Origin: Thomasclavelia ramosa DSM 1402
GTDB taxonomy: Bacteria; Bacillota_I; Bacilli_A; Erysipelotrichales; Coprobacillaceae
NCBI RefSeq assembly: GCF_014131695.1
Contig: NZ_CP036346.1
Location: 2,418,001 to 2,482,000, forward strand
Length of the DNA: 64,000 nucleotides
Reading direction: 5' to 3'
The notes beneath the pieces are model-generated. The model made no database searches. It was not told the origin of the DNA and worked only from the letters and a program-made list of their open reading frames with translations. A program made the translations under genes and the position numbers. Below are positions 59,794-62,911 of the stretch, piece after piece (the stretch's first letter is position 1; each line of letters starts with the position of its first letter).

Positions 59794-60645
59794 TTATTTT
59801 TTCTTTACCGGAATCCAAATTTCTGAATAATAATTTTCATCATGATTGCCTCGTGGATAGTCCTCACACGGTGTATACATTTCAATATTATAATGCTCAG
59901 CAACTTCGTATGTATCATTATTTGGTAACCATTCAGAAAAAATCTTTGTATTCACTTCTTGCAATGATTTAGGTACAGCACCATGACAAGCAAATACTGC
60001 CCATGTTAATTATGGAATTTCACAAACTTCATACCCATCTGGAATTTCACTGTCCAAAACATACTCATCAGCAATCAAATATTTAAATCCTTCATCTTTT
60101 TCATCTTCAATGCAAACCCCGTATACACCACACACTTTTTTATCAGCGGACTGCATATGCTCTCCCCAAAATTTAGGAATCTCATTAAATGCACAATCAA
60201 AATCAAACCTTCTTGCCTTACCTAAGACTGTAAATGCTTCTTTTTCAATAATTTTGTAATCCATGGTTGAACCACCTTTCAAAGTAAACTGTATTTTTAA
60301 CGGAGCAAAAGATTTAATCATCAATTGCTCTTTTCTTGCGACAGTCGGAGTAACTCCGTGAAATCGAGTGAATGCTTTAGTAAAACTATCTGGTGAATCA
60401 TAACCATATTCTAATGCAATTTCAATAATCTTCTTATTCGTAGTAATGACCTCACTACCAGCTAGTGATAATCTTCGATAACGAATATACTCTGCAACAC
60501 TAAAACCACATAGAATTCTAAATGCTTTTTGAAAATAAAAACTTGAAACATATGCTTCATTTGCAACATCTACAATCTTAATATCTTCTTTAAGATGTTC
60601 TTCAATGTATTTTAAAGCATTACTAATTCCATCAGTCCAATTCAT
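59794..60645 (-). pseudogene. AraC family regulator with GyrI-like domain, interrupted by a stop
   Basis: An N-terminal AraC HTH pair (residues ~4-100, VANEAYVSSFYFQKAFRILCGFSVAEYIRYRRLSLAG and SPDSFTKAFTRFHGVTP) is followed by a GyrI-like effector domain. Translation stops at TAA 60010-60012 after CEIP. The same frame continues without another stop to 59794 as LTWAVFACHGAVPKSL and, later, SEWLPNNDTYEVAEHY and SEIWIPVKKK, which is the normal end of this family. So a single base change, probably AAA to TAA, cut off about 70 residues. It may be inactive or a truncated but DNA-binding form. Confidence 0.8.
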
Positions 60646-60869: not shown

Positions 60870-60878
60870 TGATATAAT
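60870..60878 (+). promoter_or_regulatory. Extended -10 promoter of the corA leader
   Basis: TGATATAAT (TGN plus TATAAT, hexamer 60873-60878). There is no good -35 at 17 bp, consistent with an extended -10 promoter. The transcript would start near 60885, giving a leader of about 115 nt. Confidence 0.6.
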
Positions 60879-60902
60879 TAACCGTCGAAAGAAGGTGTTT
60901 TT

Positions 60903-60953
60903 ATGTCCCCTGTGCCCGAGCGATTGTGCGCTAAGAAAAAGAAAATAAAATAG
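60903..60953 (+). CDS. Leader peptide of the corA-like gene (16 aa)
   Basis: ATG start 5 bases after GAAGGTG. The product is MSPVPERLCAKKKKIK, Pro/Glu near the start and then strongly basic. That order is like the Mg2+-sensing leader peptide MgtL (Pro- and acid-rich N-terminus then basic C-terminus). The stop at 60951-60953 ends 5 bases before RNA segment 1 (60958-60965) of a three-way hairpin switch. It lies in the leader of a magnesium transporter. Translation is supported by the ribosome binding site; function is inferred. Confidence 0.6.
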   Translation: MSPVPERLCAKKKKIK

Positions 60954-60957
60954 AGAA

Positions 60958-60996
60958 ACAGGAGGCATAAACATGAACCTCCTGTAAGTGGAGGTT
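60958..60996 (+). promoter_or_regulatory. Mutually exclusive RNA hairpins controlling corA translation
   Basis: Segment 1 ACAGGAGG (60958-60965) pairs perfectly with segment 2 CCTCCTGT (60978-60985), loop 12 nt. Segment 2 in the form AACCTCC (60976-60982) also pairs perfectly with segment 3 GGAGGTT (60990-60996), the Shine-Dalgarno of corA. Only one of the two can form at a time. Pairing 1:2 frees the corA ribosome binding site; pairing 2:3 hides it. A second tiny ORF, MNLL (60973-60987), has segment 1 as its own ribosome binding site and ends 3 bases before segment 3. Confidence 0.65.
60973..60987 (+). CDS. Second leader mini-ORF (MNLL)
   Basis: ATG at 60973 with a perfect AGGAGG 7 bases upstream, codons AAC CTC CTG, stop TAA at 60985-60987. 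The stop abuts an in-frame GTG (60988) and precedes the corA ribosome binding site by 2 bases, so terminating ribosomes could reinitiate on corA. Translating it would also melt segment 2 of the hairpin switch. Too short for certainty. Confidence 0.4.
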   Translation: MNLL

Positions 60997-60999
60997 ATT

Positions 61000-61947
61000 A
61001 TGTTAGAATTTTACAAAACTTTTGGAACTGAAACAAAAAAGATCGATAAACCAGAACCAGGCAGCTGGATCAGCGCTATTGCTCCAACTGAAGAAGAAAA
61101 AAACTATTTGATTGAAGAAATGGGAATTCTACCGGAATTTGTTAAATCTTCATTAGATGCTGAAGAAAGCTCGCATATCGACTATGACGAAGATTATAAT
61201 CAGACTCTAGTAATCGTTGACTATCCTAGTGCTGAAGAAGTAGAAGATGGTTACGATAAAAATATGTTACAATATACGACATTGCCCTTAGGTATTGTGA
61301 TCATGAAAGGATACGTTGTTACCATTTCCTTATATGAAAACTTAAATATCGATGATATGGCACAAGGTCGGATCAAAGGTGTCAATACTGATTTAAAAAC
61401 AAGATTTTTATTACTATTATTATTACGAATTTCTCAACGATATTTAATTTATCTGCGCCAAATTGATCGGATCTCTTCTCGAACTGAACAAAGATTACAC
61501 AAATCAATGCAAAATAAAGAATTGATTCAAATGTTAGGACTAGAAAAATCATTAGTATATTTTTCTACCTCATTAAAAACGGACGAAATAACATTAAATA
61601 AAATTATGCGTGGGAAAGCTATTAAATTATATGATGAAGATCAAGACCTATTAGATGACGTTTTGATTGAAATCCATCAGGCAATTGAAATGTGTAATAT
61701 CTATTCAAATATTTTATCAGGAACAATGGATGCATTTGCTTCAGTTATTTCCAATAACCTGAATATTGTTATGAAAGTATTAACAGTTATTACGATCGTT
61801 ATGGCTATTCCAAATATTATTTTCAGTTTTTATGGAATGAATGTTGCAGGTTTACCATTTCCACAATGGTGGTTCCCAACGGGACTAGCAATAGTTGCCT
61901 GTATTATCGCCACAATTATTTTCATCAAAAAAGATATGTTTCATTAA
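61000..61947 (+). CDS. CorA-like magnesium/divalent cation transporter
   Basis: A 315-aa protein. A long cytoplasmic N-terminal domain with extended helices (residues ~1-250) is followed by two C-terminal membrane spans. The pore signature YGMN sits at the end of the first (MAIPNIIFSFYGMNVAGLPF), and the tail ends KKDMFH. CorA channels are Mg2+-gated pentamers. The start ATG (61000-61002) has GTGGAGG 5 bases upstream; a GTG at 60988 directly after a leader stop is an alternative. Its leader carries two short ORFs and an RNA switch around the ribosome binding site. Confidence 0.92.
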   Translation: MLEFYKTFGTETKKIDKPEPGSWISAIAPTEEEKNYLIEEMGILPEFVKSSLDAEESSHIDYDEDYNQTLVIVDYPSAEEVEDGYDKNMLQYTTLPLGIVIMKGYVVTISLYENLNIDDMAQGRIKGVNTDLKTRFLLLLLLRISQRYLIYLRQIDRISSRTEQRLHKSMQNKELIQMLGLEKSLVYFSTSLKTDEITLNKIMRGKAIKLYDEDQDLLDDVLIEIHQAIEMCNIYSNILSGTMDAFASVISNNLNIVMKVLTVITIVMAIPNIIFSFYGMNVAGLPFPQWWFPTGLAIVACIIATIIFIKKDMFH

Positions 61948-61986: not shown

Positions 61987-62035
61987 ATACTTGTTAAACA
62001 TAAATGTACTATAATATAACTATGGGGTGATATTA

Positions 62036-62911
62036 ATGGAAATTAGAACACTACAATATTTTCTTACCATCGCAAGGGAAGAAAGTATTTCTGGGGCAGC
62101 TGAATATCTACATGTAACGCAGCCAACATTATCAAGACAAATGAAAGAGTTAGAAGAAGAATTAGGAAAACAATTATTTATCCGGGGAAAACGTCGTATT
62201 ACTTTGACTGATGAAGGCATGATCTTAAGAAAACGGGCAGAAGAAATTCTTGGGCTTGTTGAAAGGGCAGAAGCTGAAGTCAAAGCTAATGAAGAACTAT
62301 TAACAGGTGATATTTATCTAGGATGTGGTGAGAGTGAAGGAATGCGTCCGATTGCCAAGACAATTGCAACGATGTTGGAAAAATACCCTCATGTAAAATT
62401 TCATTTGCATAGTGGAAAAGCTGAAGAGGTAATGGAAAAAATTGATGCTGGAGTTCTAGATTTTGGAATCGTTATTGAGCCTGTTGATTTAAATAAGTAC
62501 GATTATTTAAGGCTTCCTTATAGCAATGTTTGGGGGATTTTAATGAAGCGGGATAGTACTCTAGCATCACTTGACAAAATAACCCCTGATGATCTACGTG
62601 GAAAACCTCTTCTTTGTTCAAATCAAGGGATGGTAAAAAATGAATTAGCTGGATGGATTGGTGGAAATCAAAGGAAATTAAATATTGTGGGAACTTATAA
62701 TTTATTATTTAATGCATCTTTAATAGTTGAAGAAGGAAATTTATATGCTTTATGCTTAGATAAAATTTTTAATTCTAATAACAGTTCATTATGCTTTAGA
62801 CCACTTGAACCAAAATTAGAAGCGAATATGCTAATAATTTGGAAAAAATACCAACTCTTTACCAAAAGTGCTGAAACATTTTTAAATATGATAAAAGATA
62901 ATATTACATAA
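62036..62911 (+). CDS. LysR-family transcriptional regulator
   Basis: About 291 aa. The N-terminal HTH is MEIRTLQYFLTIAREESISGAAEYLHVTQPTLSRQMKELEEELGKQLF, the standard LysR sequence. The C-terminal substrate-binding domain begins near residue 90 (GDIYLGCGESEGMRPIAKTI). The start ATG (62036-62038) follows GGTGAT. It is followed by a convergent decayed gene and is not obviously linked to a target operon in the window. Ligand unknown. Confidence 0.92.
   Translation: MEIRTLQYFLTIAREESISGAAEYLHVTQPTLSRQMKELEEELGKQLFIRGKRRITLTDEGMILRKRAEEILGLVERAEAEVKANEELLTGDIYLGCGESEGMRPIAKTIATMLEKYPHVKFHLHSGKAEEVMEKIDAGVLDFGIVIEPVDLNKYDYLRLPYSNVWGILMKRDSTLASLDKITPDDLRGKPLLCSNQGMVKNELAGWIGGNQRKLNIVGTYNLLFNASLIVEEGNLYALCLDKIFNSNNSSLCFRPLEPKLEANMLIIWKKYQLFTKSAETFLNMIKDNIT

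Follow-up and report, generated by a model that had tools for sequence, protein, structure and literature searches.

Upstream of the corA gene of Thomasclavelia ramosa DSM 1402 lies a compact leader of about 115 nt, and the question raised by this locus is how such a leader might adjust synthesis of the transporter. In the window, by which we mean the whole 64,000-nucleotide stretch of DNA analysed, corA occupies positions 61000–61947 and encodes a CorA-family Mg2+ transporter of 315 aa (Pfam PF01544, E 2.8e-47), which scores below the TIGR00383 equivalog cut-off. The leader elements, all on the forward strand like corA itself, were given coordinates by string search. The first is an extended −10 promoter element (TGATATAAT, 60870–60878, pattern TGnTA[t/c/a]AAT), from whose position a transcript start at about 60885 would be expected. 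It is followed by an extended Shine-Dalgarno (SD) sequence, GAAAGAAGGTG (60887–60897), which is found in all close orthologues and on direct reading differs by one base from the 16S-complementary GAAAGGAGGTG, and by a leader ORF of 16 codons, MSPVPERLCAKKKKIK (60903–60953, with the stop TAG at 60951–60953), which has homologues in 43 genomes. Four segments of the RNA are able to pair with one another: segment 0, ATGTCCCCTG (60903–60912), comprising the leader start codon and codons 2–4, has segment 1 as its partner; segment 1, ACAGGAGGCAT (60958–60968), is a decoy SD with two alternative partners, segments 0 and 2; segment 2, AACCTCCTGT (60976–60985), is an anti-SD whose alternative partners are segments 1 and 3; and segment 3, GGAGGTT (60990–60996), is the corA SD, the partner of segment 2. 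Helix 1:2 has 8 bp in the window (ACAGGAGG/CCTCCTGT, the segment 1 part being 60958–60965) and excludes helix 2:3, which has 7 bp (AACCTCC/GGAGGTT), and the fold of the window leader reaches a z of −2.4 against dinucleotide shuffles, 2 of 200 shuffles being equally good. The original prediction for this DNA had named the leader ORF, the mutually exclusive helices 1:2 and 2:3 and the identity of segment 3 with the corA SD, all of which were found at these positions; its three segments stand, and its count of three does not, as it overlooked segment 0. On the two sides of corA lie regulator genes, a divergent one of the AraC family with a GyrI/Cass2-like effector domain (60010–60645) and, downstream, one of the LysR family (62027–62911).

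The leader is a conserved feature, being present in 43 genomes, which represent 17 genera in two families of the order Erysipelotrichales, and always before corA. All 16 nearest CorA orthologues with available upstream sequence carry it, in one copy per genome; these include the window's own CorA, the others being 79–89% identical to it and belonging to four genera of the same family, with named matches in Thomasclavelia, Massilimicrobiota and related Erysipelotrichaceae. The leader is absent upstream of those CorAs of the family that are more distant (about 40% identity) and of the second CorA of the window's genome (L002), and reading the upstream regions of some 80 further CorA genes showed the leader in a second family of the order. 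With a covariance model, 41 genomes of the order gave matches with E values no higher than 2.5e-7, and the leaders L071 and L095 were added by reading, which gives the total of 43; within this total, L194 and L195 were picked up by the model and confirmed in the sequence. Outside the order the leader was not found, the best E being 1.9e-4 in searches across the class (395 genomes) and the phylum (295 genomes), the large sets having been searched with stricter filters, which can lose weak matches. Weak matches of the model outside the order had no corA in the three neighbourhoods that were read, and a match at E 1.3e-5 (G015:C87) was rejected as false, since it sits between genes for a membrane protein and a zinc-ribbon protein. 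The leader-bearing CorAs lie together in one region of the CorA tree, with 4 label changes against a shuffled mean of 17. Also, 40 of 41 leaders have an extended −10 element 23–31 nt upstream of their ATG, so that the transcript probably starts with the switch. Loss of the ORF or of the hairpins in close relatives would have counted against the original prediction, and what we observe is that the same elements precede corA throughout the 43 genomes. In one genome (G043), a CorA nested within the leader-bearing clade (L225/L116) has, instead of a leader ORF, a terminator-like hairpin that includes a T-run and directly precedes the corA SD.

The three helices 0:1, 1:2 and 2:3 are kept in register, and they make up mutually exclusive structures before corA, with 1:2 on one side and 0:1 plus 2:3 on the other. 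Helix 1:2, of 6–13 bp, is present in 41 of 41 leaders and is paired in 92% of cells, with 45 double-change cells spread over 7 of 8 pairs; its covariation score of 0.428 compares with 0.188 in shuffled alignments, and none of 500 shuffles scored as high. Helix 2:3 is paired in 85.7% of cells, against 50–65% in slid registers, a conservation that is confounded by the corA SD, whose GGAGG is invariant in the 41 leaders; because this invariant SD forms the core of the helix, its covariation is confined to the flanks, where the pairs outside the core are weak. Covariation in both pairings, as looked for after the original prediction, is thus strong for 1:2, and for 2:3 it amounts to conservation mainly of the SD core with little beyond. 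Selection acts on these helices at the RNA level, and most strongly on 1:2.

The overlooked segment 0, with the consensus ATGTCyCCTG, is complementary to the segment 1 consensus CAGGAGrCAT, and almost all leaders pair at 8–10 of these 10 positions. Over 41 leaders this helix is paired in 88.5% of cells, against 36–51% in slid registers, and its covariation score was reached by none of 500 shuffles. In fact, changes in segment 1 are matched by changes in segment 0 that alter the leader peptide at residue 2 or 3, giving MSSDP in L110/L122 (ATGTCTTCG/CGAAGACAT), MSLD in L095/L102 and MFPDP in L071, and these three kinds of leader fall in separate lineages of the CorA tree; the compensatory events are few (at least three lineages), and the cell counts are not counts of independent events. 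All three reading frames are used for segment 1 among species, and in three leaders this segment comes after the stop, from which it follows that it is conserved as RNA. The partner of the leader start codon is the CAT that follows segment 1, and in 37 of 41 leaders this stretch ends in T; as the adjacent 1:2 pair fails in half of the leaders, this conservation is not due to 1:2. The leader L080 (G142), which starts MKEDPYSHDFF..., departs from the common arrangement in that the partner in its OFF pairing is the ribosome binding site of the leader ORF and not the start codons.

A different set of constraints is seen in the peptide, where codons 4 and 5 are under selection for acidic and proline residues. 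Codon 5 encodes proline in 41 of 43 leaders, with all four proline codons in use, and codon 4 encodes glutamate or aspartate in 39 of 43, again with all four codons, so the Pro/acid-rich start noticed in the window is a conserved property of the family of leaders. Serine at codon 2 is encoded only by TCT or TCC, which is what the RNA pairing demands. The C-terminus of the peptide is unconstrained, and 38 of 41 leaders keep an open frame as far as segment 1, for which shuffling gives a mean probability of 0.36 per leader. The window's own peptide has valine at codon 4 and a single early acidic residue (E6), and on paper it is a weak destabiliser of ribosomes. Asp-Pro motifs are known to stall ribosomes of B. 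subtilis (PMC11381351). Amino-acid attenuation was ruled out, the leader having no run of repeated codons.

These observations are best accommodated by a ribosome-operated translational switch through which more CorA would be made at low Mg2+, a reading that draws on folding models and on analogy and to which we give a probability of roughly 0.6. The lowest-energy fold holds 0:1 together with 2:3 in most leaders, and the form with 1:2 is on average 5.5 kcal/mol less stable. The pairing of segments 0 and 1 therefore makes 0:1 plus 2:3 the predicted ground state, and it makes the first codons of the leader, in place of its end, the predicted decisive position of the ribosome. In the RNA free of ribosomes, the leader start codon and the corA SD would both be hidden, which corresponds to the OFF state. 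A ribosome on the first leader codons would mask segment 0, allowing 1:2 to form and the corA SD to be freed (ON); smooth translation past codon 8–9 would then release segment 0, and the onward ribosome would displace 1:2 and park on segments 1–3, returning corA to the OFF state. Slowing or drop-off at the acidic-proline codons 4–6, as expected at low Mg2+, would keep the RNA in the ON form, and a shortage of Mg2+ would result in more CorA. When ribosome masking is modelled, the mean openness of the corA SD is 0.06 in the free RNA, 0.33–0.36 with the ribosome at codons 1–7 and 0.06 at codon 9; given this peak, the conserved acidic-proline codons sit where a slowed ribosome is predicted to hold the ON form. 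For the window the equilibrium model gives an openness of only 0.19 with the ribosome at codon 5, owing to the extended 2:3 helix of this leader. Formation of 1:2 during transcription, before segment 3 exists, would help the ON form of the window, a point that calls for kinetic folding. That Mg2+ is the signal, and that corA would be higher when it is scarce, we infer from the analogies with mgtQ, MgtL and Asp-Pro motifs and from the membership of CorA in an importer family (PF01544), and the behaviour of the ribosome on the leader is likewise deduced from modelling and analogy.

The position of the leader stop bears on the best of the alternatives, which we regard as unlikely: ribosomes finishing the leader would open 2:3 and reinitiate or be handed over at corA, the leader mainly tying corA to translation capacity, with Mg2+ either not being the signal or acting in the opposite sense. 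The stop lies 3–22 nt upstream of the corA SD in 38 of 41 leaders, and in the loop class the SD is often unpaired in models with the ribosome at the stop. A ribosome modelled at the stop has a footprint that covers the corA SD in 21 leaders and comes close to it in 17, and by ending at or near the SD in these 38 it could activate by coupling instead of blocking. In the remaining three leaders (the window, L015 and L112), however, the stop is 31–39 nt before the SD, which is then closed in the model. Coupling also leaves the 0:1 helix and the acidic-proline start unexplained, and an importer made in low amounts when Mg2+ is scarce would make little physiological sense.

The same three leaders are those that suit the mechanism of the original prediction, in which a ribosome completing the leader covers segment 1, 2:3 forms and corA is shut, early drop-off frees 1:2, and a mini-ORF, MNLL (60973–60987), provides a further layer by reinitiation. 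It predicts the same sign of regulation as the translational switch favoured here, and we nevertheless hold it to be improbable, more so than coupling. The stop codon lies 4 nt before segment 1 in the window (5 bases in the original prediction), and a stop upstream of segment 1 is confined to the window, L015 and L112, whereas translation of the other 38 of the 41 leaders continues into or beyond this segment. The predicted fold of the ribosome-free RNA is moreover OFF and not ON, and segment 0 has no part in the scheme. As to MNLL, ATG triplets occur sporadically in the loops of relatives, where frame, length and spacing vary, so that we judge this non-conserved mini-ORF to be a chance feature and abandon the reinitiation layer. 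Least probable is an RNA that responds directly to ions or temperature with a passive leader ORF, as the strong RNA covariation and the possibility that E. coli corA and mgtA leaders also answer Mg2+ through RNA folding (PMC11552253) are set against peptide-level selection at codons 4–5, the lack of an Rfam riboswitch match and helices that are short and simple. Helix 2:3 of the window is followed by ATTATGTT and is weakly flagged as a terminator; a transcription attenuator was rejected, as there is no conserved U-tract and relatives lack the T-run.

The favoured translational switch has relatives in mechanism. In the ermC-type translational attenuators of Gram-positive bacteria, 1:2 plus 3:4 alternates with 2:3, the SD is sequestered and the ribosome is slowed within the leader peptide. 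Hairpin exchange, SD sequestration and slowing in the leader peptide are points that the leader described here would share; the ermC-type signal is, in contrast, an antibiotic-stalled ribosome, and the target a resistance gene. A closer likeness is found in Salmonella mgtQ, the leader of mgtB: there, mgtB expression falls when the uORF lacks its start and rises when segment 1 is disrupted, and the acidic codons are required (PMC8092293). Like the present leader, mgtQ has, ahead of a Mg2+ transporter, a short uORF that carries acidic codons near its start and includes segment 1 (PMC8092293), and it has a pair of OFF hairpins (1:2 plus 3:4) opposed to a single ON hairpin (2:3), with control at translation initiation, which was shown experimentally for mgtQ and is predicted here. 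The two differ in that mgtQ lies inside an operon of Gammaproteobacteria, before a P-type ATPase, whereas the leader of the Erysipelotrichales has its own promoter-like element, precedes corA, has the uORF start codon within segment 0 and is built from SD-like and anti-SD repeats. The enterobacterial MgtL (leader of mgtA) offers an N-terminal acidic-proline motif of the M-E-P-D-P kind: its EPDP causes a Mg2+-sensitive drop-off that is counteracted by EttA, and ribosome destabilisation senses low Mg2+ (PMC11282234), as by analogy it may do here. MgtL, however, uses Rho-dependent transcription termination and a larger RNA, in place of short hairpins on the corA SD. CorL, in the corA leader of E. 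coli and Salmonella, also combines a uORF with exclusive structures, and its translation is inversely related to corA (PMC11552253); it is, in contrast, Rho-dependent, has a three-way junction and few acidic or proline codons, and no sequence similarity to it was found.

An Rfam search of the window gave no relevant match up to E 1, the M-box riboswitch RF00380 did not match at corA in the window, and in relatives no leader family matched at the leader. Rfam covariance models, used rather than direct alignment to the enterobacterial leaders, gave no sign of common descent with mgtL, mgtQ or corL; we would accordingly describe the leader as one that probably works like mgtQ, without placing it in an mgtQ family by descent. 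The original prediction knew of no such leader in this group of bacteria, and a full-text search of the open-access literature, a scope that leaves most subscription journals outside, gave no prior report for the group, the comparable leaders described being enterobacterial cases only. To our knowledge, no leader of this kind has been known in Gram-positive bacteria. On balance, and with slightly less assurance than for the switch itself, we favour the view that the Erysipelotrichales independently evolved a Mg2+ sensor based on a ribosome-destabilising nascent peptide, in which one switch hides the start of the sensor ORF together with the SD of the transporter and gates both, RNA pairing overriding the peptide at residues 2–3 and peptide selection holding residues 4–5. 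If this is true, Mg2+ sensing by nascent-chain destabilisation of the ribosome is not just enterobacterial, having arisen again in Gram-positive gut bacteria, and the gene of a CorA Mg2+ channel comes under such sensing. The natural variants of the leader separate RNA constraints from peptide constraints, and the 43 sequences give clear predictions for reporter fusions.

Other candidate leaders of Mg2+ transporter genes were noted in the course of this comparison. The genome that contains the window has an M-box (RF00380, E 7e-23) at G000:C1:937461-937615 (L197), a few hundred nt upstream of a gene for an MgtA-like P-type ATPase; eight further genomes of the genus yielded none. Elsewhere in the order, in another genus, a second, different leader ORF precedes corA (L097, L246, L249, L242, L238, L239, L089 and L094), reading MD(A/S)GPYH... 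or MDGLP(G/E)HSTYLINEA and lying 55–66 nt upstream of the gene. Behind it comes a hairpin; two examples were folded, and in both the hairpin pairs with the SD region of corA. Acidic residue 2 and proline 5 of this second leader recall mgtQ.
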